A DNA stretch of 64,000 bases, taken from assembly GCF_001424875.1 (NCBI RefSeq), contig NZ_LMCT01000014.1, positions 8,431 through 72,430 on the forward strand. Direction: 5' to 3'. The notes beneath the pieces are model-generated. The model did no database searches and was not told where the DNA came from. It worked only from the letters and a program-made list of their open reading frames with translations. This document shows positions 13,615-52,658 of the stretch, piece by piece. Within the stretch, counting starts at the first letter, position 1, and every line of letters begins with the position of its first letter. Both the position numbers and the translations under genes were made by a program. This stretch comes from Kitasatospora sp. Root107. GTDB taxonomy: Bacteria; Actinomycetota; Actinomycetes; Streptomycetales; Streptomycetaceae.

Positions 13615-13650
13615 CCCGACATTCTCGCTGCTCGCGGGCACACCGCCGCC

Positions 13651-13671: not shown

Positions 13672-13711
13672 CACGTGACCGCCCCGCTGCCCAGCCCGCA
13701 CCTTGGGCGCC

Positions 13712-31022: not shown

Positions 31023-32204
31023 TCACGCATCCCGTACGTCGGCTGCGGCGATCAACGGCAGCGGGACGGAAATCCCCTGCTGCCGACACCAGTTGAGGGT
31101 GAGGGCGAGCGGCACGCCGCGCTCCGAGCGCAGCCGGGCCAGCTCGGCCGCCAGCTCGTCGGGGGTCGGGCGTCGGGCCAGGCAGCGCAGGAAGTGCCGA
31201 TGGCCCGCCGCGACCGCGCGGTCGAAGGCGGCGGTCTCGCGCTCCACCAGGTGGCGGGCGGCCACCGAGAGGGCGGGGAAGCCGTGGGCACTGCCCGCCA
31301 GCGCCACCAGGTCGGCCATCCCGGCGGCGGGCGCGCCGGCCAGCACCACGCTGCCGGCCGCCCGGCGCAACAGCCGCCGGGTGGTGTGCGCCGGACCGCG
31401 CGGGCCGGGGACGGAGCCCGTGGCCAGCAGTAGCGCCACCGCGCGGATGTGGTCGACGACCAGACGCAGGGCCTGCCCGGGCGCGGGCAGGCTGAGGAGT
31501 TCAGGCAGCCGGGCACCGACCGACTCCAGCAGGCCGCGCAAGGGCGGCAGGTCGAAGGGGTCACCCAGCTGGGCGGAGCCGCAGGAGATCGCGTCCTCGG
31601 CGGCGAGGAACTCGAAGACCGGCAGGCCGGCTGCCCGCGCCGGCCCGGTGAACCGGCCGTCGCCCAGGTGGAGGTACCGGCCACAGAGGCAGCCGGGCGC
31701 GCAGGCCGCCGAGCAGGCCGGGCCGATCTGGCAGTCCAGCGACAGCAGGACGCCGTGCGTCCCGCGCATCCGGCGGGGCGCGCAGGGCGGTGCCTCGATG
31801 TCCGGGCCTTCCCCCGTCTGCGGGATGCCCAGGCGGGCCAGCGCGGCCCGGACCGGGTCGCCCGCCCGGGCCTGGTCCGCCATCCGGCAGACCACCATGT
31901 CCCGACCCAGGCCGCAGGCTCCCAGCGCCTCGAACATGTCGCCCAGGACGTCCTGGGGTGCGCGCGGGCCGACCCAGGCCGCACTGACCGTCCGCCGGGC
32001 GGTCAGCGGCACGGCCTCGGGCAGAGCCCCCAGCCGACCCGTGTGGACGCCCCACTGCAGCGCGACGGAACCGCCCTCGCGGCGCACGGCTCCGAACAGC
32101 AGCCCCCCGTCGGCGTGCGGGCTGCGCGGGTGGCGCCACCGATACCCGGCGTTGGTCAGGGACTCGACGAACAGCTGAGCCGGCTCAGCCGTGTGCGCAA
32201 TCAT
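31023..32204 (-). CDS. Degenerate alanyl-tRNA synthetase-like protein (truncated, active site altered)
   Basis: A 393-residue protein that aligns by eye with residues 1 to about 400 of AlaRS. VLGDMFEALGACGLGRDM corresponds to the GDMFEMLGNFSFGDYF region, and GDPFDLPPLRGLLESVGARL to the segment after motif 3. DHIRAVALLLATGSVPG plus TTRRLLRRA match the highly conserved ADHIRA..FLI.DGVLP..RRIIRRA block, and FPALSVAARHLVERETAAFD matches the following helices. The motif 3 GLER stretch is replaced by EDAISCGS and the FMQY segment is lost; a new Cys-rich patch GPACSAACAPGCLCG appears. Editing and C-terminal domains are absent. Aminoacylation is therefore doubtful. Divergent from the secreted-peptide gene. 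Confidence 0.7.
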   Translation of the reverse strand: MIAHTAEPAQLFVESLTNAGYRWRHPRSPHADGGLLFGAVRREGGSVALQWGVHTGRLGALPEAVPLTARRTVSAAWVGPRAPQDVLGDMFEALGACGLGRDMVVCRMADQARAGDPVRAALARLGIPQTGEGPDIEAPPCAPRRMRGTHGVLLSLDCQIGPACSAACAPGCLCGRYLHLGDGRFTGPARAAGLPVFEFLAAEDAISCGSAQLGDPFDLPPLRGLLESVGARLPELLSLPAPGQALRLVVDHIRAVALLLATGSVPGPRGPAHTTRRLLRRAAGSVVLAGAPAAGMADLVALAGSAHGFPALSVAARHLVERETAAFDRAVAAGHRHFLRCLARRPTPDELAAELARLRSERGVPLALTLNWCRQQGISVPLPLIAAADVRDA

Positions 32205-32232: not shown

Positions 32233-32345
32233 CGCCCAATACTCGAATCTTAACAGGGGCCTTTGGCGATGCATATGCTTTTCCATGGCGACCAAAGTCG
32301 GACACGCCGGACACTATGGGACGAATCGCCCGGGATGGAGATCAT

Positions 32346-32369
32346 TGACAACCCGGGTCATGATTGTCA
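32346..32369. promoter_or_regulatory. Inverted repeat upstream of secreted-peptide gene
   Basis: TGACAA-N12-TTGTCA, 58 bases before the 54-residue peptide gene. Possible operator; TGACAA also occurs at 39083, 43852, 43865 and 54031. Confidence 0.4.
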
Positions 32370-32426
32370 TTATTTCGAGTGAAGTTCCAGTCGGAACGAT
32401 TCTCAGATCCATGAACGGGGCCTTTA

Positions 32427-32591
32427 ATGATTCAGAAGCTCATAGCGATGTCCGTCTTTCTGCTCGTCGCCGCCGTGCTGACCCTGGCCCCCGTGCAGAG
32501 CGGAAGCGCACAGCTCGACAACGGCCGGGGCGCGCACACCGTGACCGCCCTCGGGTCGCCGACGGGCATAGACATCCCGCTCTGCTGTTGA
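32427..32591 (+). CDS. Small secreted peptide (54 residues), candidate signalling peptide
   Basis: From the ATG at 32427: MIQKLIAMSVFLLVAAVLTL (a classical Sec signal peptide, basic then hydrophobic), then APVQSGSA with an Ala-x-Ala-like cleavage zone, then a short exported part of about 26 residues ending PTGIDIPLCC. A second in-frame ATG seven codons later gives the same product. It sits beside and convergent to an XRE/TPR regulator, separated by a strong terminator. This is the layout of secreted pro-pheromones of the PapR/PlcR type, where the C-terminal residues are the signal. An alternative is a RiPP precursor, since the two terminal Cys could be modified by YcaO. The ribosome site is weak. 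Confidence 0.6.
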   Translation: MIQKLIAMSVFLLVAAVLTLAPVQSGSAQLDNGRGAHTVTALGSPTGIDIPLCC

Positions 32592-32629
32592 CGGGCAACC
32601 GCGTCAGTACCATGCACGGGTCGGGCCCC

Positions 32630-32675
32630 GACGCGTCGATGGGCGGCCCCGTCCACAGGAGCCGCCCATCGCGTC
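32630..32675. terminator. Bidirectional terminator between peptide and regulator genes
   Basis: CGATGGGCGGC pairs with GCCGCCCATCG around a 13-base loop, extended by imperfect GACGCGT/GCGTC pairing. It lies between the two convergent stops. Confidence 0.7.
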
Positions 32676-32689
32676 CGACGTCACACCGG

Positions 32690-34039
32690 TCAGGGTCGGG
32701 GGAGCCCGGGCACCGACTTCGCGACATTGCCGACCAGAGTCCCGCGCCGGCCCATGCAGCGCATGCCCTGGCGATACGCCCACACCGCGCGTTCCTCCTG
32801 ACCTGAGCGCTCCAGCACCTCTGCCAGCTCCGCCCAGGCGAAAGCCGCCTGGCGCCCCGCCTCGGAAGCCTCCAGGGTCAGTGCGGCCCGCTCGTAGGCG
32901 CTCCGGGCAGCCTCCTCCTCGCCCTGCTCCAGGTAGGCGGCAGCCAGCACCAGCAGTGTCCGAGCCGTCTCCAGCCGGTGCTTGGAACCCAGCAGGTCGA
33001 GCGCGCGGCGGGCGTGACCGACGGCGGTCTCCGGGTGGCCCGAGAGCAGGTGGGCGCGGGCCATCGCCGTCTCGCAGTAGGCGATGTCGACGCTGCTGCC
33101 CTGGCTGGCCAGCACGTCGGCGCTCTGCTGCAGCAGCCCCTTCGCCGTGTCCACGTCCGGCGCGTCGGTCTGCAGCAGGACCGCCGCGTAGGCGTTACGC
33201 AGTCGGGCCAGCGCCCGGTGGTTGTCGCCCTCGGAGTAGATCGCCAGCGCCCGCCGGATCAGCATCAGTGCGTCACCGGAACGGCCGTTGCTGTGCGCGG
33301 CCACGCTGGCGTTCCAGTAAACGGCGCCGAGCGCCCTCGGGTCGCTCACCTCCTTGGCCTGCTCGATGCCGACGGAGGCGAGATAGGCCGCGCGGTGCAG
33401 GTCACCGCGCTCGTAGTGCAGCCCGACCAGGGTGGCGACCAGCTCCATGCCGACCACGGTGGGCGCCAGATTGAGGTCCTGCACCTGGGTCAGCGTGGTC
33501 TCGGCCAGGTCGATGGCGTACGAGAGGTCGCCCAGTTCGCGGTAGCAGCGGCAGAGCGCCACGACCACGGCGAGCTGGGAGCTGCGGCTGTTCGCCTGCC
33601 GGGCCGCCGTCCGCAGCGCCTCGTAGCGCACCACGGCCTCCTCGAGCCGGCCGCTGTGCTCCAGCGCCTTGGCCACGCCCAGTTCGGCGGCCTCCGCGAT
33701 CTCCTGCTCCCCCGCCGCGGCGGCCTTGCCCTGCAATTCCTGGTACGCCCGCAGCGCGCCGGCGGCGTCGCCGGTGCGGAGCGTCATCTCCGCGTAATGC
33801 ATTTCCACTTCGAGGTCGCCGGTCTGGGCGCGCTCGACGAAACTCAGCAGATTCGCCGGATCGCAGGACAGCCGTTCGGCCAGCTGTTCCAGCACGGCGC
33901 CGGACGGATTGCGCTTGCCGGCTTCGAGCAGGGAAATGTAGCTGGACGACAGATCGTCTCCCGCCAGGTCTGCCTGCGACATCCCGGCTGCTCGGCGCAG
34001 TTGCCGGATACGGGACCCGAGGCCCTGAAGATCTACCAT
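32690..34039 (-). CDS. XRE-family HTH regulator with TPR repeats (RRNPP-like architecture)
   Basis: A 449-residue cytosolic regulator. Residues about 5-60 form an XRE HTH (SRIRQLRRAAGMSQADLAG, then SSSYISLLEAGKRNPS). The rest is helical repeats of TPR type, for example GAVYWNASVAAHSNGRSGDA, LRNAYAAVLLQTDAP and LVLAAAYLEQGEEEAARSAY. This is the architecture of peptide-responsive regulators such as PlcR and of many actinomycete cluster regulators. The ATG at 34039 has a GGAGGG ribosome site; a longer start lies inside the putative operator at 34075. With the adjacent secreted peptide it forms a plausible peptide-sensing pair controlling the cluster. Confidence 0.82.
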   Translation of the reverse strand: MVDLQGLGSRIRQLRRAAGMSQADLAGDDLSSSYISLLEAGKRNPSGAVLEQLAERLSCDPANLLSFVERAQTGDLEVEMHYAEMTLRTGDAAGALRAYQELQGKAAAAGEQEIAEAAELGVAKALEHSGRLEEAVVRYEALRTAARQANSRSSQLAVVVALCRCYRELGDLSYAIDLAETTLTQVQDLNLAPTVVGMELVATLVGLHYERGDLHRAAYLASVGIEQAKEVSDPRALGAVYWNASVAAHSNGRSGDALMLIRRALAIYSEGDNHRALARLRNAYAAVLLQTDAPDVDTAKGLLQQSADVLASQGSSVDIAYCETAMARAHLLSGHPETAVGHARRALDLLGSKHRLETARTLLVLAAAYLEQGEEEAARSAYERAALTLEASEAGRQAAFAWAELAEVLERSGQEERAVWAYRQGMRCMGRRGTLVGNVAKSVPGLPRP

Positions 34040-34074
34040 GACCACCCTCCTTGACTCTGCATGAAGATTAGCAG

Positions 34075-34091
34075 TTGACATCACCTGTCAA
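34075..34091. promoter_or_regulatory. Palindrome upstream of XRE/TPR regulator
   Basis: TTGACA-TCACC-TGTCAA, 36 bases before the regulator start; a TGACTC word lies at 34052-34057. Candidate auto-regulatory operator. Confidence 0.5.
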
Positions 34092-37780: not shown

Positions 37781-37870
37781 TCAGATGGTCTCGGCACCCA
37801 TGGCCGCACCCAGAACGATGTCGAGCTCGTCGTTGGTGAGCAGCTCGGTGATCTCGCGGGAGATGTTCAT
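37781..37870 (-). CDS. 29-residue peptide with double-glycine-leader-like sequence, candidate RiPP precursor
   Basis: MNISREITELLTNDELDIVL followed by GAAMGAETI. The segment LTNDELDIVLGAA closely resembles the L-T-x-x-E-L-D-x-V-x-G-G/A leaders of bacteriocin and other RiPP precursors, which would leave a very short core (MGAETI) after the small residues. An AGAGGTAGAG ribosome site precedes the ATG. It is the first gene of the exporter operon, preceded by a promoter region with a cluster box (37943-37959) and followed by a 36-bp hairpin. The tiny core is odd; a scaffold or signal role is possible. Confidence 0.65.
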   Translation of the reverse strand: MNISREITELLTNDELDIVLGAAMGAETI

Positions 37871-37942
37871 CTCTCTACCTCTTTCGTTTGGGAAGCCGGT
37901 CGGCCTCCATGACCAGAACTCTAAGCTTTGACGTCAGTTTTA

Positions 37943-37959
37943 GTCAATAAAGCGAGTCA
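37943..37959. promoter_or_regulatory. Cluster box (reverse orientation) GTCAATAA-AG-CGAGTCA
   Basis: Lies 73-89 bases upstream of the 29-residue peptide gene. In reverse complement it reads TGACTCG-CT-TTATTGAC, matching 32217-32232 except for spacer length. Next to it at 37956-37980 is an inverted repeat GTCAACTTC-N7-GAAGTTGAC that may be the terminator of the PhyH gene or part of the operator. Confidence 0.55.
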
Positions 37960-37994
37960 ACTTCTCTGCGGGAAGTTGACCGGGCCGGATCCGG

Positions 37995-38844: not shown

Positions 38845-39006
38845 TCACCAAGGGGTGATGACACCTTCGAGGATGCTGTCCTTGACGGCAGCGAGCTGCT
38901 CGAAATACGCCTGCTCGTCGCGCTCCTCGGTGGCCTGGCGGGACTCCTCCGGCTCCGCGACGGTGTCGTCCACGGACCCGGCCGGAAGCTTTTCTTCGCG
39001 TGTCAT
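38845..39006 (-). CDS. 53-residue acidic peptide, candidate precursor or scaffold peptide
   Basis: From the ATG at 39006: MTREEKLPAGSVDDTVAEPE, then an acidic helix-prone middle (EERDEQAYFEQLAAVKDS) and a neutral end ILEGVITPW. A strong GAGGAGTAG ribosome site precedes it. The layout of a charged leader plus a short uncharged C-terminus is that of RiPP precursors or of scaffold peptides extended at the C-terminus. It heads an operon with PhyH and is divergent from the CHAT-like/YcaO/TfuA operon. No Cys, Ser or Thr lies in the last nine residues except one Thr, so azole formation is limited; backbone thioamides would not need them. Confidence 0.65.
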   Translation of the reverse strand: MTREEKLPAGSVDDTVAEPEESRQATEERDEQAYFEQLAAVKDSILEGVITPW

Positions 39007-39070
39007 CCACTACTCCTCGTGCGCGCTGAACAGGGACCGCGCGGGCACGCGGCTTGGCGAAGCTACCCCA

Positions 39071-39086
39071 TGACTCGAATAGTGAC
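39071..39086. promoter_or_regulatory. Cluster box TGACTCG-A-ATAGTGAC
   Basis: Between the divergent 53-residue peptide gene and the CHAT-like gene. With the preceding AT, 15 of 17 positions (39070-39086) match 32216-32232. A further CTTGAC follows at 39090. A -10-like TATGAT at 39100-39105 would give a nearly leaderless transcript for the ATG at 39118. Confidence 0.55.
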
Positions 39087-39117
39087 AAGCTTGACTGCCT
39101 ATGATATCAACTTAGTC

Positions 39118-40767
39118 ATGAATGAGTTGAAGCTCCGTTCCGCCACCGGGCGCACGGGGGGTCTGGTCATCGGGCAGGGCAGTGCCGGGGAGCTTGCCCG
39201 CGGCTACGCCGAAGCGCTCAGGCGGCCCTTCCTCGCCGTGGAAGAGCCGGATCAGGCGCTGCGAGCCCTCGACCTGGCGGCGGCGCGGGACGGCTCGGCC
39301 TTCGTGCTGCCGGCGGAGCGAGAGCTCGGCTTTCGCGAGGTCAACGCGCTGATGGGGCGTGGCCGCGAGCTCAACCTCCCGGTCGGCGTGCTGCCACTGC
39401 CGGCCGACCCGGCCGATGCCGCCGCACTGGTGGACCGGGCGGTGGCCCTGCACGCTCCCACCCCTCGCCACCGCCACCGGTCGCTCTACTACACCGACTT
39501 CCGCCGTACCCCGCCCGCTGAGCGGCCCGGCGTCTACGGCTCGGCGCAGTCCGGCGAGTTCATCGAGCAACTGCGCTCCGGCGCCGAGGCCGTGGTGCTG
39601 CACAGCCACGGGAACGGCGCCGACTTCCGGGTCGGCGAGCACGTGCTCTGCCTCCAGGTCGACGGGCTCAAGCCCGCCCCGGCGCAGGCCGGCGAGCACT
39701 TCCTGCCCTGTCAGGGCGGCGGGCCGTGCCGGCTGGACCACAAGAGTGGCTTCCAGGCCTTCCACGGCGCGCGGGCCGTGCGCGCCCGGCTGCTCGTACT
39801 GCTCTCCTGCTCCGCCTACCAACCGCACGACGGTCTGCTCGGTGCGCGGTTCCAGCTCTCCCAACAGCTGCTGCGCGGTGCGCATGTGGCCGGCGTCGTC
39901 GCCTCCACCCGGATCAACCACGGCACCCCGCAACTGGGTGTGGCAGTGGCCCAGTTGCTGCAGGAGGGGGCCTCGCTGGGCGAGGTCGCGCTGCGGGTGA
40001 ACCGGCTGTCCGCGCAGGGGCCGGCCTCGTACGTCTGCCTGGGCGACCCGGACCTCGTGCTGCCGCCGGCCGGTGCCACCGAGCGACCGGCCCGGGCCCC
40101 GGTCGCTGCCGCCGCCCCGGTGCGCACGGCCACCACCCCCGCGCCCGCCGCCGCCCGCCCGTGGCAGTCCACCCTCGACCTGCTGTTCGCGGCCGAGTTC
40201 GCCGCCGCGACCGGCTCGGCCCGGCTGAGCGGCCGGTTGGCCGAGGCGGCCGTGGCCGCGATGCGGGCGCCCACCAACGCGACCCGACTGGACACCGCGC
40301 AGTTGCGGATCCTGGCCGCCGCGCCGGAGGAGGCCTGGCAGCAGCTCTGCCTGCCGACCGGCTCGCGGCCCGACGGCCGGTGTCCCGGGTGCGGGGGCCA
40401 GGCCACCGAGACCGCGTACGCCGCCGTACTGCACCCCGCCTACCGGCGCACCGTTCGCCGCTGCGCGGTGCACGGCCTGCTCAGCGACACCCCCGCCGGT
40501 GCGGCGAACGTCCCGCGCGGTGTCCGCCACGACCGCGCCGACGGGCTGGTCCGCTGGGACACCGGGCAGCTGTCCGGGTGGTGCACCGTGGTGGGCGAGG
40601 GCGGGGACAGCGGTCGGCGCCCTTCCCCGGTTCCGGCCGGTGCAGGCAGCCAGCGCGTGCCGGGGCCGACCGGCGAGAGCGTGACGCTCTGCCACACCGC
40701 GGCCGGCGCCTTCTCGCGCATTCGGGTCTTCACCGGCGCCCCGGGGCCGGGCGGCCGGCATGGCTGA
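39118..40767 (+). CDS. CHAT/caspase-like cysteine-protease-fold protein with C-terminal Cys cluster
   Basis: A 549-residue protein. The middle resembles a CHAT domain: a strand-loop AVVLHSHGNGADFR (His near residues 162-164), then RLLVLLSCSAYQPHDG (Cys near 231), AHVAGVVASTRINHG and LLQEGASLGEVALRVN, ending YVCLGDPDLVL. This suggests a His/Cys dyad peptidase, possibly for leader removal. A Pro/Ala linker leads to a C-terminal part with RCPGCGG and RRCAVHG, a likely zinc site. The start at 39118 is preferred; an in-frame ATG at 39070 lies inside the conserved promoter box. First gene of the YcaO/TfuA operon. No specific family is certain. Confidence 0.6.
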   Translation: MNELKLRSATGRTGGLVIGQGSAGELARGYAEALRRPFLAVEEPDQALRALDLAAARDGSAFVLPAERELGFREVNALMGRGRELNLPVGVLPLPADPADAAALVDRAVALHAPTPRHRHRSLYYTDFRRTPPAERPGVYGSAQSGEFIEQLRSGAEAVVLHSHGNGADFRVGEHVLCLQVDGLKPAPAQAGEHFLPCQGGGPCRLDHKSGFQAFHGARAVRARLLVLLSCSAYQPHDGLLGARFQLSQQLLRGAHVAGVVASTRINHGTPQLGVAVAQLLQEGASLGEVALRVNRLSAQGPASYVCLGDPDLVLPPAGATERPARAPVAAAAPVRTATTPAPAAARPWQSTLDLLFAAEFAAATGSARLSGRLAEAAVAAMRAPTNATRLDTAQLRILAAAPEEAWQQLCLPTGSRPDGRCPGCGGQATETAYAAVLHPAYRRTVRRCAVHGLLSDTPAGAANVPRGVRHDRADGLVRWDTGQLSGWCTVVGEGGDSGRRPSPVPAGAGSQRVPGPTGESVTLCHTAAGAFSRIRVFTGAPGPGGRHG

Positions 40768-41437
40768 CGGGAACCTGGACCGGGCCGCCCGGCATGTGCT
40801 GCAGGCAGTCATGGTGCGAGCCGCCGTCGCCGCCGGCGACTATCCGGCGATGATCGGACGTCGACTCGCCGGCCAACTCGACCTGCGGGCAAGGGCGGAG
40901 TCCACCGGCAGCCCGGTCGAGCGGGCCGGCGCCGGTGACCGCGCACTGTGCGCCTTTCTCGCCACGATCCTCAGCCGCCGCGGCCCGGACGTGCACGACT
41001 ACCTCACCGGCGCCTTCGGTTATCGCCCCGAACGCGCCACCGGACTCCGACACCACTGCGGCAGAGAGCTGTTGGGGATCGAGCTGGTGCCGCACTGGGC
41101 CCCGGCCCGGCCTCGCGAGCTCTACATCTGCGAGCGTTGCGGCCCGGCCTACAGCCTCCCGCACGGCTTCGCCCCGCCGAGCCGACTGCGGGTCGACCCG
41201 GCCGCGCTCCGGGTGGAGTTCAACGCACCACTGGTGCACGCCGGTTGGTTCGCCGCCAGTCGCCAGCCGATCGGCGGCCACCGTGAACGCCCACTGCTCC
41301 CCCGCGCCCTGGCGCCCGGCGCCGAGGCGCTGGAGGTCCCGATCCCCACCGGCGCAGGCCCGGGCCTGCGCCGCTTCGCCGCCGCCCTGGTCGTCGACGG
41401 CGACTACGCGATCTTCCAAGTCCCGGACACGACATGA
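40760..41437 (+). CDS. Unrecognised protein with zinc-ribbon-like motifs
   Basis: A 225-residue soluble protein. The N-terminus is helical (RAARHVLQAVMVRAAVAAGD), then come LRHHCGRELLG and ELYICERCGPAY, which together could bind one zinc. The C-terminal half is beta-rich. It overlaps the CHAT-like gene by eight bases and the YcaO gene by ATGA, so it belongs to the modification operon. It could be a substrate-recognition partner for YcaO, but no RRE-like fold could be confirmed by eye. Confidence 0.6.
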   Translation: MADGNLDRAARHVLQAVMVRAAVAAGDYPAMIGRRLAGQLDLRARAESTGSPVERAGAGDRALCAFLATILSRRGPDVHDYLTGAFGYRPERATGLRHHCGRELLGIELVPHWAPARPRELYICERCGPAYSLPHGFAPPSRLRVDPAALRVEFNAPLVHAGWFAASRQPIGGHRERPLLPRALAPGAEALEVPIPTGAGPGLRRFAAALVVDGDYAIFQVPDTT

Positions 41438-42750
41438 AGGGTGGCGCCGACGCCATGGAAGAACTGAAGCACCGCCATCCCAAGGAGCACCGGGACGGCA
41501 CCCACCGCGCCCGCCCCCCGGCCGAGACGCTGGCCGACTTCGGTTCCCGGATGGGGCAGTTCGGCATCACCCGACTGGCCAACATGACCGGCCTGGACTG
41601 GCTCGGCATCCCGGTCTACAACGCCATCCGGCCCAACTCCCGTTCGCTGTCGGTCTCCCAGGGCAAGGGCGTGGACCACGCGGCGGCCGCCGTCTCGGCC
41701 CTGATGGAATCGATCGAGTGCTGGCACGCCGAGTTCTTCGACGGACCGCTGCGCCACGACTCGTACCAGAACCTGCGCCGCCGGCTTCCTGTCCTGGACA
41801 TCCACCAACTGCCGCTGCGCGGCGGGCTGGACACCACCGGCACGGGTTCGCGCGAGACGCCCGCCCGCTCGACGCTGCGCACCGACCTGCCGCTGCTGTG
41901 GACCGAAGGCCACGAGCTGATGGGCGGCGAGCCGATCTGGCTGCCGCACGAGAGCGTGCTGCTGAACAAGGTCGGCCTGGACTACGCCTCGACCACCTTC
42001 CGAGTCAGCTCCAACGGCCTGGCCTCGGGCAACAACCTGGTCGAGGCCACCATCCACGGCATCTGCGAGCTGGCCGAGCGCGACGCGCTGACCATGTGGT
42101 GGCAGGGCCTGCGCGAACGCTCCGATGTCGAGGCCGCCAAGCTCGACCTGGGCACCATCGACGACCCCGGCTGCCGGGGCCTGCTGGACGCCTTCGCGGA
42201 AGGCGGCCTGGAGGTCGCCGTCTGGGATGTCACCTGCGACACCGGCATCCCGGCCTTCCAGGCCTGCGCGGTGGAGAGCGCCGACCGGGTGGCCTGGCGC
42301 TCGTTCGGCGCCTGCTGGGGCTACGGCGCGCACACCTCCCCCGCCGTGGCGCTCTCCCGCGCGCTGACCGAGGTGGCGCAGAGCCGGGTCACCGTCATCG
42401 CGGCAAGCCGGGACGAGAACTTCCGCACCATGTACAACGCGCAGAACAGCGCCAAGAGCCTGGCCCGCACCCGCGAGGTCTTCTTCGCCCACCCCGGCAC
42501 CCGGCCGTTCGACCCGACCACCGGGATCGACAACCCGACCCTCGACGAGGACCTGGACGCGGTGCTCGAGCGGCTGCGCAAGGTCGGCGTCGAGCAGGTG
42601 ATCGCGGTCGACCTCAGCAAGCCGGAGGTCGGCATCCCCACCGTCAAGGTCGTCGTGCCGGGTCTGGAGCACTACTCCCTGTTCATCGGCTACACCCCCG
42701 GTCCGCGCGCCACCGCGCGCCGGGCCCGCGCCCAGAAGGGATCCGCATGA
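41434..42750 (+). CDS. YcaO-domain ATP-dependent backbone-modifying enzyme
   Basis: A 438-residue YcaO protein, the class that activates peptide amide oxygen with ATP to make azolines or, with TfuA, thioamides. ATP/Mg-binding segments are visible: SQGKGVDHAAAAVSALMESIE (S-x-x-x-E), SNGLASGNNLVEATIHGICE, ELAERDAL (E-x-x-E-R) and AVALSRALTEVAQSR. The C-terminus is not Pro-rich (no PxPxP), as in thioamide-forming and other non-azole YcaO proteins. It is ATGA-coupled to TfuA downstream. Probable substrate: one of the nearby small peptides. Confidence 0.9.
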   Translation: MKGGADAMEELKHRHPKEHRDGTHRARPPAETLADFGSRMGQFGITRLANMTGLDWLGIPVYNAIRPNSRSLSVSQGKGVDHAAAAVSALMESIECWHAEFFDGPLRHDSYQNLRRRLPVLDIHQLPLRGGLDTTGTGSRETPARSTLRTDLPLLWTEGHELMGGEPIWLPHESVLLNKVGLDYASTTFRVSSNGLASGNNLVEATIHGICELAERDALTMWWQGLRERSDVEAAKLDLGTIDDPGCRGLLDAFAEGGLEVAVWDVTCDTGIPAFQACAVESADRVAWRSFGACWGYGAHTSPAVALSRALTEVAQSRVTVIAASRDENFRTMYNAQNSAKSLARTREVFFAHPGTRPFDPTTGIDNPTLDEDLDAVLERLRKVGVEQVIAVDLSKPEVGIPTVKVVVPGLEHYSLFIGYTPGPRATARRARAQKGSA

Positions 42751-43847
42751 GCGTGTACGTCTTCCTCGGTCCGAGCCTGCCGGTCGAGCAGGCCCGCGCG
42801 GTGCTGGACGCCCACTACCTGCCGCCGGTCAGCTGCGGAGACGTGACCGAGCTGGTCCTGGACCGTGAACCGCCCACCGTGATCGGCATCGTGGACGGGC
42901 TCTTCGAGCAGGTCCCGGCGGTGTGGCACAAGGAGATCCTCTTCGCGATGAGCCGGGGGGTGCGGGTGGTGGGCGCATCCAGCATGGGAGCGCTGCGCGC
43001 CGCCGAGTTGCACGCCTTCGGCATGGACGGCGTCGGCAGCGTCTTCGAGGACTTCAGGGACGGCCGGCTCACCGACGACGACGAGGTGACCATCGTCCAC
43101 GCACCCGGCGAGGACGGCTACCGTCCGTTGTCGGAGGCGATGGTCAACCTGCGGGCGGGCCTGGCCGGCGCCCGACAGGCGGGGGCGATCAGCGCGGCCA
43201 CCCACGACGCCCTGCTGGCGGCGGCCAAGCGCACCTTCTACCCCGACCGCTCCTGGGGCCAGGTGTACGCGGACGGCCGCGAGGCAGGCCTGCCGCAGGA
43301 CGAACTCGACGCCCTGCGCGGCCATGTGCGCACGACCCGGCCGGACGCCAAGCGGGACGACGCGCTCGCACTGCTGGCCAGGATCCACGACATGGTCGCC
43401 GAGGGCGTCCAACCACCGGTCTGTGCCTTCGACTTCGAGCCGACCTACTACTGGGAGAAGTTGCTGCGCACGGTCCGTCAGCAACGCGGCGAGCGGGCGA
43501 TGGAACAGGCGCTGGGCGTCCCGGCCGCCACCGCGCTGGCCCAACTGGCCGAGCAGCGGCCGGAGGTGACCTCGGCCGCACTGCTGGACACGCTGGTGCG
43601 GCGGGAGGCCGAGCATCTCGGCGTGCTGGTCCCGGAGGAGATCAGGGCCAAGCACTCCGAGGAGGGCGGTGCCCTGCGAGAGGTGATCTCCGGCCACCTG
43701 CGCGGGGATCTCACCGATCCGGTGCTGCGGAAGCTGGAGCAGCTCGGGCTGCTGGCGTCGGCCCGGGCCGCACTGGCGGCCGGCCGGGACACCCCGGAGG
43801 GTGACCCGCAGCAGGCGGTTCCGCTGCCTTCCGGGCGACGCGAATGA
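42747..43847 (+). CDS. TfuA-like protein (YcaO partner)
   Basis: A 366-residue TfuA-family protein with the typical N-terminal YVFLGPSLPVEQARAVL opening, VIGIVDGLFEQVPAVWHKEI, and SRGVRVVGASSMGALRAAEL followed by GVGSVFEDFRDGRL and DDDEVTIVHAP. In known systems TfuA helps YcaO install thioamides, probably by delivering sulfide. The second half is a longer helical extension than in the shortest TfuA proteins. ATGA-coupled to YcaO. Last gene of this operon. Confidence 0.9.
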   Translation: MSVYVFLGPSLPVEQARAVLDAHYLPPVSCGDVTELVLDREPPTVIGIVDGLFEQVPAVWHKEILFAMSRGVRVVGASSMGALRAAELHAFGMDGVGSVFEDFRDGRLTDDDEVTIVHAPGEDGYRPLSEAMVNLRAGLAGARQAGAISAATHDALLAAAKRTFYPDRSWGQVYADGREAGLPQDELDALRGHVRTTRPDAKRDDALALLARIHDMVAEGVQPPVCAFDFEPTYYWEKLLRTVRQQRGERAMEQALGVPAATALAQLAEQRPEVTSAALLDTLVRREAEHLGVLVPEEIRAKHSEEGGALREVISGHLRGDLTDPVLRKLEQLGLLASARAALAAGRDTPEGDPQQAVPLPSGRRE

Positions 43848-43850
43848 TTC

Positions 43851-43879
43851 TTGACAATGAAATATGACAACCATAAACT
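43851..43879 (+). promoter_or_regulatory. Promoter of the Rieske/GCHII operon
   Basis: TTGACA at 43851-43856, a 17-base spacer and TAAACT at 43874-43879. The spacer contains a second TGACAA, giving TGAC half-sites 13 bases apart (43852, 43865), the same spacing as the cluster box. A 5' leader of about 75 bases follows. Confidence 0.55.
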
Positions 43880-43960
43880 CAAAATATGACTAGGCCTTAG
43901 CGGTCTTTCCTCTTCCGTGACGTCCGCCGGAATCCACACCACTCCCCCGAAAGGGCTCGC

Positions 43961-45172
43961 ATGACGCTCAGCATCGACGAAAACCGCCGGCTCACCGAAG
44001 TCGGCCCGGGTACACCGATGGGCGACCTGCTGAGCCACTACTGGATGCCCGTGGCCGTCTCGGTCGGCTGGGAGCCCGGCCAGGTCCGCCCGGTCGAACT
44101 GCTCGGTCGGCGCTTCGCGCTCTTCCGCCGACCGGACGGCACCTGGTCGATGCTCGACGAGCGCTGCCCGCATCGCGGCACCTCGCTGGCGTTCGGCATG
44201 GTCGAGGAGCGCGGCCTGCGCTGCCCGTACCACGGCTGGCTCTTCGACGGCTCGGGCGCCTGCCTCGACCAGCCGAACGAGGACCCGGCACTGGGCTTCA
44301 AGCATCGGATCACCCAACCTGCCTACCCCGTACGTGAGTTGGGCGGCCTGGTGTTCGCCTACCTGGCCCCCGGAACGCCGCCCGAGCTGCCCAGGTTCGA
44401 TCTTCTGGTGGAGAGCGACGTCGAGGTCTCCATCCGCACCGCGGTGATCGACTGCAACTGGCTGCAGATCGTGGAGAACGGCCTGGACCCCGTCCACCTG
44501 GAGTGGCTGCACGGCCACTTCGCCAACCACCAGAACCGGCAGTCCGGCAACGTGGACCTGTACGAGGTCGCCCACCACGAGGAAATCGGCTTCGACACCC
44601 ACGACTTGGGCATCATCAAGCGCCGCCTGCTGGAGCAGCAGGACCGGGCCGAGGAGGACTGGTCGGTCGGGCAGCTGGTGCTCTTCCCGGCCGCGATGTA
44701 CGTCAGCAACCGCCACTTCCGCTCCATGCAGTTCCGGGTACCGCTGGACGACGTCCGCACCTGGCACGTCTGGTACGAGGTGCGCGGCCGGGGCGCGGCG
44801 GCACCGGCCCCCGGCGCCGAGATCCGCTTCCCGGGGCGGCCGGGCGCCGGGCGCAGTTCGGACGACACCGCCGCGGGCACCCGGTACCACGTCTCCGAGG
44901 CCGAGATCACGCACGCCGACGGCTCGTTCAACCTCGACACCATCGACGGCCAGGACGTGATGGCCTGGGTCACCCAAGGCCCGATCGCCGACCGCACCCG
45001 CGAGCGGCTCGGCGGCGCCGACCGGGGCATCACCCTGCTGCGCCGGTTGCTCTTCGAGCAGCTGACCGCTGTCGAGCAGGGCTTGCGCCCGCGCTGGTCC
45101 GACCTGGGCGCGGACGTCATCACGATGCCCCGCCGTACACACAGCCGCCCGATTCTCAGCGAACTCACCTGA
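43961..45172 (+). CDS. Rieske non-haem iron oxygenase, large subunit
   Basis: A 403-residue oxygenase. The Rieske [2Fe-2S] motif is complete (CPHRGTSLAF then CPYHGWLF), and the mononuclear iron site is present in ENGLDPVHLEWLHGH. It resembles phthalate 4,5-dioxygenase/vanillate demethylase types that hydroxylate or demethylate aromatic or heterocyclic substrates. No reductase or ferredoxin gene lies nearby, so electrons must come from elsewhere. GAAAGGG precedes the ATG. First gene of the long plus-strand operon to 52571. Confidence 0.9.
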   Translation: MTLSIDENRRLTEVGPGTPMGDLLSHYWMPVAVSVGWEPGQVRPVELLGRRFALFRRPDGTWSMLDERCPHRGTSLAFGMVEERGLRCPYHGWLFDGSGACLDQPNEDPALGFKHRITQPAYPVRELGGLVFAYLAPGTPPELPRFDLLVESDVEVSIRTAVIDCNWLQIVENGLDPVHLEWLHGHFANHQNRQSGNVDLYEVAHHEEIGFDTHDLGIIKRRLLEQQDRAEEDWSVGQLVLFPAAMYVSNRHFRSMQFRVPLDDVRTWHVWYEVRGRGAAAPAPGAEIRFPGRPGAGRSSDDTAAGTRYHVSEAEITHADGSFNLDTIDGQDVMAWVTQGPIADRTRERLGGADRGITLLRRLLFEQLTAVEQGLRPRWSDLGADVITMPRRTHSRPILSELT

Positions 45173-45231
45173 GACCGACCGGTCCCACCTACCTGTCCAG
45201 CCCCTGTCCCGCAGACCCGAGGAGTCCCGCC

Positions 45232-45276
45232 GTGACTCAGCTGTTCCATCCCGTCATGGAGGTGCTGTCCAAGTGA
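45232..45276 (+). CDS. 14-residue mini-ORF coupled to the GCHII-like gene
   Basis: GTG start with a strong CGAGGAG ribosome site; product MTQLFHPVMEVLSK. Its stop overlaps the start of the next gene (GTGA). It could be a translational leader that controls the cyclohydrolase, or a tiny peptide substrate in its own right. Reality as a functional product is uncertain. Confidence 0.45.
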   Translation: MTQLFHPVMEVLSK

Positions 45277-46475
45277 GCGCCCTCCCACTGCCCGCCCCCG
45301 ACGGCCCGGCCCACCTGCCACTGCGCTGGGACGGCGGCGAAACCCCGTTCGTCCTGTGGCACTTCGACTTCGGCGGAGGCAACCGCTGGGTGGCGGCCTA
45401 CACCGGCGAGCTGCACAGCGGCGAGCCGATGCCGCTGCGCATCGAGTCCGCCTGCATCTTCGGCCATGTGCTGCGCTCGGCCCAGTGCGACTGCGGCTAC
45501 CAGCTGGACCAGGCCATGGAAAGCTTCGCCCGCAGCGGCCGCGGCCTGCTGCTCTACGGCGTCGACCAGGACGCCCGCGGCCTGGGCATCGCCGCGCACT
45601 TCGCGATCTACGCGATGCGCCAGCAGGAGAACCTCGACACCGATGCCGTCTACGCGCGCCTGAACGCCCCGGTGGACGCCCGCAGTTACGAGCCCGTGGT
45701 GGCGATCCTGCGCCATCTCGGCGTCCCTTCGGTGCAGTTGCTCAGCAACAATCCGCGCCGCGAGGCGTTCCTGCGCGAGGCCGGCTTCGAGGTCGAACTC
45801 GCCGCGCTGGAAGCCCCGTTGGACATCCACAACATGAGCACCCTGATGCTGGAGAAGGAGGACCTGGGCTACCGCTGGTCCTTCGAGACGCACGCGGACT
45901 GGCTGCAGCCGCTGCAGGACGCGGTGGCCGGCGAGCCCGAGCGCTCGGTGGCCTGCCTGGCGGTGCCCGGCGGCGGCAGCGCCGGGACCCCGCTGGCCCA
46001 GGTCGACAGCGCCGACTGGGACCTCGCCCGGCGCCTCGCGGCCGCCGCCCCTCCGGTGCCCCCGGCCGGCACCCCGGTGGTCTACCTCACCGACCTGCCC
46101 CGCGCGGACGACCTCGCGGTGTACGCGGGCCTCGGCGCCGCCGCCGTCGTGGTGCCCTTCGCCGACCTGCCCGAGCCGCTGCGTGAGGCGGCCGCCGCCG
46201 CCGGTCTGCGGCTGGTCGACTGGGAACGCCGCAACGCCTACCGTGCGCCGCGACCGCAGTGGCGCCTGGAGCACCGGCTGCCCGGCCTGGACGTCTACGG
46301 CCGCGAGGGGCACCTGCGCCTGGTCGCCACCGGCTCCGCCGCGGCGCATCAGGCGGTGCGCGCCGACTTCGAACGCGAGCCCGCCCGGTACGGCACCCTG
46401 ACCCGCACCGGCGACGGCTGGTTCGAGCTGGACCCGGCCCCCGGCACGCTCGACGCCGTCCTGACGGCACGATGA
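45273..46475 (+). CDS. GTP cyclohydrolase II (RibA)-like protein with C-terminal extension
   Basis: A 400-residue protein. Residues about 45-185 are a RibA domain: Zn-binding Cys in RIESACIFGHVLRSAQCDCG (C-x10-C-x-C as in RibA), LLLYGVDQDARGLGIAAHF in place of the usual LLYxRQEGRGIGL, VDARSYEPVVAILRHLGV with the Asp and Arg of the active site, and QLLSNNPRR. The RQEGR alteration may change the substrate. About 210 further residues with an unrecognised fold follow. A ring-opened GTP-derived pyrimidine is the expected product if RibA chemistry is kept. Confidence 0.78.
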   Translation: MSALPLPAPDGPAHLPLRWDGGETPFVLWHFDFGGGNRWVAAYTGELHSGEPMPLRIESACIFGHVLRSAQCDCGYQLDQAMESFARSGRGLLLYGVDQDARGLGIAAHFAIYAMRQQENLDTDAVYARLNAPVDARSYEPVVAILRHLGVPSVQLLSNNPRREAFLREAGFEVELAALEAPLDIHNMSTLMLEKEDLGYRWSFETHADWLQPLQDAVAGEPERSVACLAVPGGGSAGTPLAQVDSADWDLARRLAAAAPPVPPAGTPVVYLTDLPRADDLAVYAGLGAAAVVVPFADLPEPLREAAAAAGLRLVDWERRNAYRAPRPQWRLEHRLPGLDVYGREGHLRLVATGSAAAHQAVRADFEREPARYGTLTRTGDGWFELDPAPGTLDAVLTAR

Positions 46476-47137
46476 CCGGCACCACCCGCGCGGTCAGCCG
46501 TGCCGAGGGGATCGCGCTGACCGACCGGGACGCGCTGCCGGTCGACACCGCCCTTGCGGCGCCGGACGGCATGCGCCGCTTCGTCACGCTGAACCCCTTC
46601 CACTTCGACCCGCACTGGCGCATCCCGGTCCCCGGCCTGGATGCCGTCTCCTGTTCGGTCGAGAGCGTCTGGCAGGCGCTCAAGCTGGTCGACGGCGCCA
46701 CCGACCTCACCCTGCTGCCGCGCCCGGCCGTCAAACGCCCCGCCGAGGACCAGCGCGGCGCCGGGTTCGACTACCCGGCCTCCACGCTCAGCTACGCGGG
46801 CACCACGATCGACCTGGTGACCGCCCGGTACGCCGTCTACCTGCCCACGTACCTGCACCTGCTCGACCGGCTGGTGCCGGACTCGGTGCTGGACGAGCTG
46901 CGCACGGCCCTGGACCAGGGCCGGGACATCGTCTTCTACGACTGGGACGACAACACCGACATCGAGGACGCCCGGACCTCCTTCAGCCACTCCGCCGTGC
47001 TGGCCGCCTGGTTCGGCGGCCGGATCGAGGAGATCACCGGCCGGCTGGCCCGGTGGCGGGCGCTGCACCCGGACTCGGCGCACTGCCTGCGCGCGGACCT
47101 CCCCCTCGACCGCTACCTGCGGTTCCACCAGCACTGA
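46472..47137 (+). CDS. Uncharacterised protein, possibly NADAR/YbiA-like N-glycosidase
   Basis: A 221-residue protein, ATGA-coupled to the GCHII-like gene. The stretch VSCSVESVWQALKLVDGAT resembles the S-x-E-H-x-Y-Q-A-x-K core of NADAR/YbiA proteins, which cleave the sugar from riboflavin-pathway intermediates made by GCHII. Other visible parts (DIVFYDWDDNTDIEDARTSF, SHSAVLAAWFGGRIEEITG) are unassigned. If correct, the pair would release a free triaminopyrimidine. The match is by eye and weak; the coupling to GCHII is the main support. Confidence 0.5.
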   Translation: MTGTTRAVSRAEGIALTDRDALPVDTALAAPDGMRRFVTLNPFHFDPHWRIPVPGLDAVSCSVESVWQALKLVDGATDLTLLPRPAVKRPAEDQRGAGFDYPASTLSYAGTTIDLVTARYAVYLPTYLHLLDRLVPDSVLDELRTALDQGRDIVFYDWDDNTDIEDARTSFSHSAVLAAWFGGRIEEITGRLARWRALHPDSAHCLRADLPLDRYLRFHQH

Positions 47138-47151
47138 AAGGTGTGCGGGCC

Positions 47152-48534
47152 ATGCATCTCCCCCGACGACTTGCCGGATCCCTGTACTGGCAGGAGCAGC
47201 GGCTGCGCGGCAGAGCAGGCGTCAAGGACCGCCTCCAGTGGCTGCGCGCCAACCAGGAGCGGACGCCCGCCGAGATCGCGGAGCTGCAGTTCGACAAGCT
47301 CCGCGCCACCGTCCGGCACGCCTACCGCACCGTCCCGTACTACCGCCGGGTGATGGACGAGCGCGGTGTCCGGGACCTGGAGTCGGTGGCAGACCTGCGC
47401 AAGCTGCCGCTGCTCACCCGTGATGTGCTGATCAGGGAGCAGGAGCAGCTGGTCTCCTCGGAGGCCGACCGCGCCACCCTGCAGACCAACTTCTCCTCCG
47501 GCTCGACCGGCCGGCGCGCCCAGTTCCAGCAGGACGCCGACTTCCGGATGTGGATGCGCGCCCACCAGCTGCGCACCTACGAGTGGTGCAGCGGCTGGCA
47601 GTTGGGGGACCCCTTCGTGCTGCTGTGGGGCTCGGAGATCTACTGGTCGCTCAAGCAGCTGGTGGACCGGAGCGAGAACCTGCTCTCCAACCGCCGGGAG
47701 TTCAACACCTTCCGCCTCTCCCCGCAGCTGGTCACCTCGGTCACCGACGAACTGGTGCGCTTCCAGCCCGCGTTGGTCAGCACCTACTCCAACGCGATGC
47801 ACCTGATCGCCAAGGAGGCCGAACGGCGCTCGCTGCGGATCCCGGGCCTGCGCGCCGTCCAGGGCACCTCCGAGCCGCTGCCGCCCGCACTGCGCGCCAC
47901 CATCGCGCGGGTGCTGGAGTGCGACGTGTACGACAAGTACGGCATGCGCGAGACCAATATCGTCTCGCACGAGCAGCCCGGCGGCGGGGCGATGCTGATC
48001 CAGGCAGAGAACGTCTTCGTGGAGTTCCTGGACGAGAACGACGAGCCCTGCGCGGACGGGCAGACCGGTCGCATGGTGCTCACCACCCTGAACAACAGCT
48101 CGATGCCGCTGGTGCGTTACGAGACCAGCGACCTCGCGGCGCCGCTGCCGGCGAGCGCCGCCACCAGCCTGCCCTACCCCGCGATGACCTCGGTCGCCGG
48201 ACGGCTGCAGGACCTGATCGTCACCCCGAGCGGCGACCACGTGGACGCGTACCTCTTCTCGTACCTGTTCATGCGCTTCCCCGAGGTGCACTGGTTCCAG
48301 GTCGTGCAGAGCGAGCCGCACCGGCTCTCGGTGAAGGTCTACACGCCGCAGGGGCTGAGCCGGCAGACCACCGAGACGCTGACCGAGCGCATCCACCACC
48401 ACACCGGTTTCCCCTTTGCGATCGACTTCGAGTCGCTGGACCGGATGCCGGAGTCCTCCACAGGCAAGTTCCGGCTCTGCGTCTCCGAGCTCGGCGCCGC
48501 CGCCACTGCTGGGAGTCCCCATGCCCGAGCTTGA
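47152..48534 (+). CDS. PaaK/CapK-like adenylate-forming enzyme
   Basis: A 460-residue member of the phenylacetate-CoA ligase/CapK branch of the ANL superfamily. N-terminal TVRHAYRTVPYYRRVMDERG is the usual CapK opening. The ATP loop is TNFSSGSTGRRAQF, followed by AVQGTSEPLPPALR, DKYGMRETN (the Y-G-x-x-E motif), a R-Y-E-T-S-D-L segment in place of YRTGD, and a late MPESSTGKFRL with the catalytic-type Lys. It should activate a carboxylic acid as adenylate; no carrier protein is seen nearby. Starts 14 bases after the previous stop. Confidence 0.83.
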   Translation: MHLPRRLAGSLYWQEQRLRGRAGVKDRLQWLRANQERTPAEIAELQFDKLRATVRHAYRTVPYYRRVMDERGVRDLESVADLRKLPLLTRDVLIREQEQLVSSEADRATLQTNFSSGSTGRRAQFQQDADFRMWMRAHQLRTYEWCSGWQLGDPFVLLWGSEIYWSLKQLVDRSENLLSNRREFNTFRLSPQLVTSVTDELVRFQPALVSTYSNAMHLIAKEAERRSLRIPGLRAVQGTSEPLPPALRATIARVLECDVYDKYGMRETNIVSHEQPGGGAMLIQAENVFVEFLDENDEPCADGQTGRMVLTTLNNSSMPLVRYETSDLAAPLPASAATSLPYPAMTSVAGRLQDLIVTPSGDHVDAYLFSYLFMRFPEVHWFQVVQSEPHRLSVKVYTPQGLSRQTTETLTERIHHHTGFPFAIDFESLDRMPESSTGKFRLCVSELGAAATAGSPHARA

Positions 48535-50083
48535 CCCCGCCGGGGTACTGCCCTGGGACGACGACGCGCTGCCCTCGCCGCCCGCGCCCGCCGCGCCGAC
48601 CCTCCCCTGGGAGCCCGCGCGCGGCGGCGCCAAGGTGGTGGCACTGACGGACGCGGCCGCACCGCACCGCGAGGGCTTCGACCTCGGCCGCTTCGCCACC
48701 TGGCTGCGCGAGGCGGACGTGCTGGACCAGGGGCCGATCGAGCTGCCCGGCGCGACCGTCACCCTGCCCTACGGCATGCGGATCATGCGCCGCTTCAACG
48801 ACGTCGTCGCGGGCGCCTGCGAACAGGCCGGCTTCGAGGAGTTCGACTACCCGATGCTGGTACCCGACTCGGTGCTGGAGCCGACCCGGGAGATCATGCC
48901 GCTGAAGGGCTCGCTGCTCTACGCCGGCAGCGACGAGGACTGGGCGGCCGGGCGCAAGCGGATGGTGCTGACGCCCACCGGCGAGGGCGCGGTCTACACG
49001 CACTGGGCGGGGATGGTCCGCAGTCGCCGCGACCTGCCGATCCGCGCCTACCGCAAGGCGCGGTACTTCCGGCCCGCGCGCGCCGGGCGCAGCGTGTTCC
49101 GGGCGATCGAGGCCCAGGACATCTACGAGTTCCAGGCCTGCTACGCCGACCGGTCCGGTGCCGTCGAAGGCTTCGAGCAGGCGACAGCGATGGCCCGTCA
49201 GGTCGGCGGGCGGCTGCACGTCCCGGTGCTGTGGTCCACCCGCCCGCCGTGGACCAACAACACCCAGGTCTCCGACCGGACCATCGGCGGCGACGTCGCG
49301 CTGCCGCACGGCGCGACCCTGCAGGTGGGCTGCCTGTACGACCAGGCCCAGCGGTTCTCCCGGCTCTACGGGGTCGGCTTCCGCGAGGGCGCCGAGCAGG
49401 TGTACACCCACCACGTGACCGGCGCGCTCACCCGGCGGCTGGTGCTCACCCACCTGATGCTCGGCATGGACAGTGAGGGCGAGCTGCTGCTCCACCCCGA
49501 CCTGGCACCCGTCCAGGTCGCTCTCACGCTCACCAGCGACGATGCCCAGGAGCTGGCTGACGCACGGGAGTTGGTCACCCGGCTGGCCGCTCGCGGGGTG
49601 CGCTGCGAGCTGCGGACCGAGGCGGACCGGCGCGCTGTCGGGCGGCTGCACAAACGCTGGCGGCGCCAGGGCGTGCCGCTGCGGGTCTACCTGCAGGCCC
49701 GTCGCGGCGCCGGTGACCGCACCCGGGCCGTGGTGGTGCGCGCGGACACCCGGGAGGAGGCCGTGCTGCTGCCGGCGGAACTGTCCGCGCTGGCGGAGGT
49801 GCTGCCCGGCGCGCTGGCGGAGGTCGGCAACGGATACCTGCGGCGTTCCTGGGGCTTCGCCCAGCGCCAGTGCCGGACCGCCGACAGCGCGAGCGTGCGG
49901 CAGATCCTGACCGAACGCGCCGTCGCCGTGGCGCCGTTGGAAGCGAGCGAGGAAGCGGTGGGCGCGGTGTCGCAGTGGCGGCTCGGCGAGGTGCTGGGGT
50001 TCCGCCGGGCGCCGGGGCCGGCGCCGTGCGTCGTCACCGGCCGCATCGTGACGACCGTCGCCTACCTCTCCCCGCGCACATGA
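48521..50083 (+). CDS. Degenerate class II aminoacyl-tRNA synthetase-like protein (ProRS/ThrRS type)
   Basis: A 520-residue protein with a class II synthetase core: TLPYGMRIMRRFNDVVAGAC (motif 1 region), MVLTPTGEGAVYTHWAGMVR, a motif-2 region RDLPIRAYRKARYFRPARAG in which the usual acidic residue of R-x-E is absent, ATLQVGCLYDQAQRFSRLYG and YTHHVTGALTRRLVLTHLML with the motif-3 Arg. A C-terminal part like an anticodon-binding domain follows (APVQVALTLTSDDAQELAD). It probably activates an amino acid or binds tRNA for a non-translational role. The ATG overlaps the CapK-like gene by 14 bases; GGGAG precedes it. Confidence 0.72.
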   Translation: MPELDPAGVLPWDDDALPSPPAPAAPTLPWEPARGGAKVVALTDAAAPHREGFDLGRFATWLREADVLDQGPIELPGATVTLPYGMRIMRRFNDVVAGACEQAGFEEFDYPMLVPDSVLEPTREIMPLKGSLLYAGSDEDWAAGRKRMVLTPTGEGAVYTHWAGMVRSRRDLPIRAYRKARYFRPARAGRSVFRAIEAQDIYEFQACYADRSGAVEGFEQATAMARQVGGRLHVPVLWSTRPPWTNNTQVSDRTIGGDVALPHGATLQVGCLYDQAQRFSRLYGVGFREGAEQVYTHHVTGALTRRLVLTHLMLGMDSEGELLLHPDLAPVQVALTLTSDDAQELADARELVTRLAARGVRCELRTEADRRAVGRLHKRWRRQGVPLRVYLQARRGAGDRTRAVVVRADTREEAVLLPAELSALAEVLPGALAEVGNGYLRRSWGFAQRQCRTADSASVRQILTERAVAVAPLEASEEAVGAVSQWRLGEVLGFRRAPGPAPCVVTGRIVTTVAYLSPRT

Positions 50084-51810: not shown

Positions 51811-52571
51811 GCCCGGTCCCGAGCCTCGCCGAGGCGGTCGACGCGTCGTCCGGCCCGGCGCTCGGCCTCTTCCTGCTGAGCGGCAGCAGCCTGCTCGCCG
51901 AACTGTGCGGCACGCTCCCCCTGCAGTGGGTGGTGCTGGACATGGAGGCGTCGGCCATGTCCAAGCAGGACGCGCTGCACATGCTGCAGGCGCTCACCGG
52001 GTCGCCCTGCGTGCCGATCGTGCGCGTCCCCTACCTGAACCACCATCTGATCGAGCACGCGCTCGACCTGGGCGCTGCCGGCGTGATGGTCCCCAAGGTG
52101 GACACCCCGCAGGCTGCGGCGGCCGCCGCCGCGGCCTGCCGCTTCCCGCCGGAGGGGCAGCGCGGCATCAACCCGGTACGGGCGTCGGGCTATTTCGCCG
52201 ACGTCGCGGGCTATCTTTCGCGCGCCAACGCGCGGACCTCCTGCGTGGTGCAGATCGAGTCCGCACTGGCGGTCGAGAACGCCGACGCGATCGCGGCCAC
52301 CCCCGGTGTCGATGCGCTCTTCCTCGGGATGGGCGATCTGGCCTGCGCGCTCGGGCAGCCCGGGGTGATGACCGGTCCCGCGATGGACGCCGCCCGTGCC
52401 GCCGTACTGCGCGCCGCCCGCGCCCACGGCAAGCAGGCCGGGATCTTCGCCTACGCGCCGGAGCTGGCCCGCGCCTACGCCGCCGAGGGCTTCGAGCTGA
52501 TCGCCTTCGGGAACGAGGTCAAGCTGCTGCGCGACGCGATTCTCTCGGGCATCGACACGCTGGCCTCCTGA
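51792..52571 (+). CDS. HpcH/HpaI-family aldolase
   Basis: A 259-residue class II aldolase of the HpcH/HpaI/2-dehydro-3-deoxy-glucarate family, which cleaves or forms C-C bonds with pyruvate-type donors. Seen: WVVLDMEASAMSKQDALHML, PIVRVPYLNHHLIEHALDLG, GVMVPKVDTPQAA, a VVQIESALAVENAD metal-binding Glu segment and ALFLGMGDLACALG with its Asp. Start ATG at 51792 within the previous gene's end. With the Ldh2 domain it could make and reduce a 2-keto acid for the pathway. Last gene of the operon, followed by a strong palindrome. Confidence 0.86.
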   Translation: MSHPLLSPVPSLAEAVDASSGPALGLFLLSGSSLLAELCGTLPLQWVVLDMEASAMSKQDALHMLQALTGSPCVPIVRVPYLNHHLIEHALDLGAAGVMVPKVDTPQAAAAAAAACRFPPEGQRGINPVRASGYFADVAGYLSRANARTSCVVQIESALAVENADAIAATPGVDALFLGMGDLACALGQPGVMTGPAMDAARAAVLRAARAHGKQAGIFAYAPELARAYAAEGFELIAFGNEVKLLRDAILSGIDTLAS

Positions 52572-52584
52572 CAGCCGGACGCAG

Positions 52585-52628
52585 GATGGTCCCGCCCACG
52601 GTCCGGCCGGACCGTGGGCGGGACCATC
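52585..52628. terminator. Perfect 44-bp palindrome, bidirectional terminator
   Basis: GATGGTCCCGCCCACGGTCC and two more bases, followed directly by their reverse complement. It lies between the convergent aldolase and PaaK-like genes. Confidence 0.85.
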
Positions 52629-52658
52629 GGCGTTCCTCCAGTGGTCAGGTGCCCGGAC

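Follow-up and report, generated by a model that had tools for sequence, protein, structure and literature searches.

Two neighboring genes of Kitasatospora sp. Root107 probably encode an RRNPP-like peptide pheromone and its cytoplasmic receptor, with a terminal Cys-Cys as the conserved recognition end, a reading to which we assign a probability of about 0.7. They lie in a 64,000-nucleotide stretch of DNA that was analyzed as a whole (the window). The pairing of the two genes, its conservation, the Cys-Cys end and the enrichment of operators are observed, and the receptor fold is a prediction.

The first gene (32427–32591, + strand) is an open reading frame (ORF) for a secreted propeptide of 54 residues (MIQKLIAMSVFLLVAAVLTLAPVQSGSAQLDNGRGAHTVTALGSPTGIDIPLCC) with the C-terminus ...SPTGIDIPLCC. 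A lysine in the n-region is followed by a long hydrophobic core, and signal peptidase could plausibly cut near GSA|Q. The 54-residue Sec-signal peptide proposed in the first-pass annotation is thus present, although its signal is judged by hydropathy only: signal peptides of the window and the relatives were called from hydropathy, the charge of the N-terminus and the presence of AXA-like sites, and no trained predictor was used. A search of both Pfam and NCBIfam gave no entry for the peptide family. The ORF is more than a chance reading frame, since purifying selection acts on the peptide in relatives (pN/pS of 0.47, 0.29, 0.21, and 0.42 in four close groups) and its Cys-Cys end is highly specific for the neighborhood of this regulator family.

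The second gene (32690–34039, − strand; ATG at 34039, AAGGAGGG upstream) encodes a regulator of 449 residues, the proposed receptor. Pfam identified HTH_31/HTH_3 and TPR, with TPR_12 and TPR_MalT exceeding the cut-off, and the AlphaFold model (mean pLDDT 93.9, 83-sequence alignment) is all-helical, with an HTH that leads into a TPR superhelix, in agreement with the XRE HTH and TPR architecture assigned before. When the model was compared with solved structures, it matched Rap (Z 25.6), NprR (24.0, or 21.0 with NprX), AimR (19.4, spanning model residues 4–430), and PlcR (19.1), the last over 281 of 284 PlcR residues from the HTH into the TPR region (model residues 4–290). However, MalT (Z 26.9) and eukaryotic LGN match the model as well as the RRNPP receptors do, and TPR domains bind many ligands, so that the fold alone is no proof of peptide sensing. 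With respect to the named RRNPPA subfamilies (Rap, Rgg, NprR, PlcR, PrgX, ComR, AimR), a PDB profile search, in which subfamily HMMs were not used, matched PlcR at E 7e-16 but ranked generic TPR proteins above it.

The two genes are convergent and separated by 98 bp. The terminator annotated between them was only partly supported: a strong, terminator-like hairpin is found at 32630–32675 (−32 kcal/mol, z −4.9), but it lacks a T-run and is not a classical terminator. The arrangement can be set against the five-criterion signature that RRNPP_detector uses for RRNPP(A) quorum sensing (PMC10075063). The required propeptide length of 10–100 aa is met by the 54 aa found here, by the 38–69 aa of the relatives and by the 28–34 aa of distant members, and the receptor (449 aa) lies within 250–500 aa. 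Its TPR content is supported by Pfam above cut-off and by an all-helical repeat model like Rap/NprR, and adjacency is given by the 98-bp gap and its recurrence in relatives. The Sec signal is clear by hydropathy, charge, and AXA-like sites, which remains a hydropathy-based call.

Among the known systems, PlcR/PapR of the Bacillus cereus group was the analogy drawn in the first-pass annotation, and the receptor fold, the common operators, and the conserved cluster promoter fit it. In both cases a short Sec-exported propeptide, presumed to carry the signal at its C-terminus, adjoins an XRE HTH and TPR receptor. The pair described here differs in belonging to another phylum, in its longer TPR array (449 aa versus ~285 for PlcR), its invariant Cys-Cys C-terminus and variable gene orientation, and in the lack of experimental data. 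NprR/NprX and Rap/Phr of Bacillus resemble it in having a long TPR superhelix of comparable length (Z 24–26) and a short secreted peptide beside the receptor, whereas Rap has no HTH, the peptide motifs differ, and the system in the window belongs to the Actinomycetota. The AimR/AimP arbitrium system likewise combines an HTH and TPR-like receptor (Z 19.4) with an adjacent short peptide, but AimR is mostly found on mobile elements (PMC9765709), while the actinomycete pair is chromosomal or on large linear plasmids, in some cases beside biosynthetic genes. The TPR-like regulators of the NsdA family (NF053720) are also actinobacterial and show weak sequence similarity, yet the regulator falls below the curated cut-off (30.5 bits versus 75).

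Regulator homologues were gathered at the genus, family, phylum, and class levels and from genome contigs. In the first nine homologous loci inspected, a short signal-peptide ORF was found that varies in its middle part and ends in Cys-Cys. A CC-ending signal-peptide ORF of 38–69 aa within 1.1 kb of the regulator was present for 70 of the 127 regulators under a strict filter and for 73 under a looser one. By comparison, 79 similar ORFs were counted in 289 kb of background sequence from these loci, outside the surroundings of the regulators, and just 1 of them ends in CC. The background comes from the regulators' own loci, not from whole genomes, and its sole CC ORF (L127, ...DGHWCC) is 1.6 kb distant from the regulator at that locus. 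In 17–20 kb stretches around ten paired regulators, the ORF near the regulator was the only one of this kind, and three further stretches of that size around regulators contained no CC-ending signal-peptide ORF. A lack of conservation of the small ORF beside homologous regulators, which would have refuted the initial proposal, was therefore not observed, and judged from these sequences the pair represents a widespread family and is not peculiar to the cluster in the window.

The pair is spread across the class Actinomycetes, and its arrangement varies. Most families have the peptide gene on the 5' side in divergent orientation; the window's clade, like several others, has it on the 3' side and convergent, and in Streptomyces sp. 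Mg1 (WP_008741297.1, ...KDIPLCC) it runs codirectionally with the regulator. In Streptomyces sp. NBC_01707 (WP_331750220.1, ...GDLPLCC) it is found 1.9 kb away, past an alanyl-tRNA-synthetase-like gene, and is still preceded by an operator. That the partnership is kept through rearrangement argues for a function of the pair. The peptide of Nonomuraea gerenzanensis ends in ...GDAGCC. No peptide was found for ~20 regulators outside a peptide-free paralogue clade, some of which are explained by contig ends, and none of the 18 regulators of that clade, which belongs to family f68, has a secreted short peptide ORF alongside. In most members of the clade (L139–L155, L162) a conserved 52-aa ORF (MQVKKVLKYG...FVSHLS), oriented in the same direction, lies ~0.7 kb upstream. 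A second regulator/peptide pair is present in the genome of the window itself (L002, 1141–2829, contig C12), with the end ...TPGPPECC and two perfect operators. An alanyl-tRNA-synthetase-like fragment protein (31023–32204, − strand) adjoins the peptide gene in the window, and a relative of it neighbors the regulator in both L031 and NBC_01707. With respect to origin, viral contigs gave HTH-level similarity only, and a phage source was rejected; the sole record from a phage, the gut scaffold L188 that is flagged as unverified, lacks a CC peptide. S. coelicolor has an old 655-Da signal that is imported via BldK, and a link to it was set aside because the regulator family is patchy in the Streptomycetaceae (12 of 81 genomes).

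Two vicinal terminal cysteines are found in all 70 strictly called peptides, while the remainder varies. The variable C-termini that had been predicted were thus found only in part, as residues do vary between loci but the terminal Cys-Cys is invariant in this set. In the window's clade the peptides end in D-[IFVL]-P-x-C-C, and the DIPLCC end is common to the window, L008, L034, and Streptomyces sp. Mg1. If the shortest members are cut where signal peptidase appears to act, only ~10–13 residues ending in CC would remain. Thirteen further regulators are accompanied by secreted peptides of equally small size whose C-termini differ and mostly contain Trp, and a peptide similar to those of family f68 is present in Nonomuraea (Streptosporangiaceae).

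The invariance of the cysteines in an otherwise variable peptide would also suit a redox or metal sensor, in which the exported Cys-Cys end reacts with oxidants or binds Zn or Cu and the regulator reads the state of the peptide, not cell density. This explanation is unlikely in our view. In a single clade of seven loci in family f68 (L114, L115, L117, L118, L123, L131, L132), the orthologous peptides carry GWNHPG, GWGWPG, and WGYPI-type ends in place of CC at the same divergent site, and the distant homologues from other actinomycetotal families (L055–L060) have 28–34 aa signal-peptide ORFs ending in FPWGGT, FPWPK, SWSDGHL, and YPWR. Since CC can be replaced by GW..P-type or Trp ends, cysteine chemistry is not essential. 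Moreover, no invariant receptor cysteine pairs with CC: C163, which seemed invariant in 19 sequences, is a cysteine in only 39 of the 73 CC-paired regulators and was rejected as a disulfide partner of the Cys-Cys end.

In the receptor alignment, the column most associated with the Cys-Cys end is N243, which is Asn in 69 of 73 CC-paired regulators versus 14 of 52 others. On phylogenetically independent pairs, 2–3 go the same way and 0 the opposite way, which is too few to test and not significant, and the link is suggestive only. From TPR numbering we infer that N243 and the near-invariant R164 occupy positions 6 and 9 of TPR helix A, as in carboxylate-clamp TPRs. On balance it seems fairly probable that the Actinomycetota possess a phylum-wide, unrecognized RRNPP-like class, in which the terminal vicinal Cys-Cys would serve common receptor recognition and the preceding residues specificity, and in which some clades would have swapped Cys-Cys for Trp/Pro ends along with a change of receptor residue 243.

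With up to one mismatch allowed, 54 kb of promoter sequence from regulators and peptides contains 38 copies of the palindrome TTGAC-N7-GTCAA, versus 16 in 664 kb elsewhere; the window holds only 3 such sites, against 0.39 expected. The operator-like repeats reported before both genes were recovered, as TTGACAACCCGGGTCAT with one mismatch at 32345–32361 and as a perfect TTGACATCACCTGTCAA at 34075–34091, which a motif scan placed together with an extra TTGAC half-site in the regulator promoter (34051–34091). The former overlaps the −35 hexamer of a sigma70-like peptide promoter (32345–32373, + strand; TTGACA-17-CATTAT with TG before the second hexamer) that is a consensus match only. In the window's genus, most divergent loci have two copies of the palindrome 23 bp apart, directly upstream of the peptide. 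A perfect TTGAC-N7-GTCAA is also located at 13653–13669, far from the pair and between the divergent genes at 12529–13641 (− strand) and 13703–14923 (+ strand), and could be due to chance or be another target.

Operators common to regulator and peptide are also compatible with a membrane-tethered anti-regulator, of which the hydrophobic N-terminus would be the anchor and the tail would sequester the regulator, without intercellular signaling. The signal-like N-terminus could indeed be an uncleaved anchor, and tails are as short as ~10 residues. The apparent topology (positive N-terminus, AXA-type sites) would nevertheless put the tail outside, away from the cytoplasmic regulator, and we regard this alternative as improbable.

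According to the pheromone reading, the 54-aa propeptide would be exported by Sec, and signal peptidase, possibly with further proteolysis, would free a C-terminal peptide ending in ...DIPLCC, which may build up outside the cell and then be re-imported via an oligopeptide permease. Its free Cys-Cys C-terminus is proposed to dock in the concave TPR groove of the regulator and thereby to alter the occupancy of the TTGAC-N7-GTCAA operators at the regulator's own promoter, the peptide promoter, and putatively the promoter of a mini-ORF/ABC-transporter operon in the adjacent YcaO-containing cluster. Repression relieved by the peptide is favored with weak confidence, since at the peptide promoter the operator covers the −35 hexamer. 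Secretion, processing, re-import, binding, direction of control, and density dependence are all inferred, as there are no binding, secretion, or expression data.

Actinomycetes are the makers of most known antibiotics. As the pair recurs across actinobacteria, antibiotic-producing actinomycetes probably use widespread peptide signaling of a kind that has up to now been reported for Bacillus-like bacteria. A peptide/receptor pair readable from sequence would yield predicted signals (...DIPLCC, ...DFPACC, ...WPGMCC) to synthesize and add to silent clusters, and the recurrent pair would make actinomycete peptide signaling directly testable. The described quorum signals of Actinomycetota are mainly small molecules (PMC10075063), and a survey of RRNPPA systems covered Firmicutes only (PMC9765709). 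No description of an RRNPP-type system in Actinomycetota was found in the open literature; subscription journals and preprints were mostly outside this search, and the absence is not proof.

The proposed further target is a group of four TTGAC/GTCAA half-sites at 37928–37980, one of only two clusters with at least three half-sites in the window, where 0.05 would be expected in all 64 kb. It precedes a 29-aa mini-ORF and the ABC-transporter operon, and S. xanthophaeus has a half-site cluster in the corresponding position (L022, 4051–4080). The mini-ORF (37781–37870, − strand; MNISREITELLTNDELDIVLGAAMGAETI), conserved in S. xanthophaeus as MDICREITELFSNDELDIVLGAAMMAETI (L022, 4156–4245), looks like a RiPP precursor with the leader ...DELDIVLGA and the core AM.AETI, and the same cluster contains a YcaO gene (41434–42750). 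Given that the pair lies within a YcaO-containing biosynthetic cluster and that operators precede the peptide, the latter could itself be a secreted effector, either an antimicrobial peptide or a RiPP precursor, with the XRE/TPR gene as merely its local regulator. We consider this possibility improbable, because no maturation genes travel with the pair and the surroundings change from locus to locus (P450 and SARP genes in Mg1, NRPS in NBC_01176, unrelated genes in others) while receptor and peptide mostly stay together. Of the biosynthetic genes, those for PhyH, the methyltransferase, and the GTP-cyclohydrolase-like protein recur with the regulator in L022, L029, and L030 and not in other loci, and in L029 and L030 CoA-ligase and ProRS-like genes accompany it as well. 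This restriction to three loci suggests that the pair, read as a signaling module, is portable.

The cluster at 39019–56912 is unusual, comprising YcaO, a Rieske oxygenase, a GTP cyclohydrolase II-like protein, AMP ligases, an HpcH aldolase, and Ldh_2. It also encodes, at 48416, a ProRS-like protein and, at 55032, a full ProRS that has an editing domain and is possibly a resistance copy. A 53-aa ORF (MTREEKLPAGSVDDTVAEPEESRQATEERDEQAYFEQLAAVKDSILEGVITPW; 38845–39006, − strand) with a GAGGAG ribosome site lies between PhyH and the gene at 39019, and is a possible second scaffold or precursor peptide.
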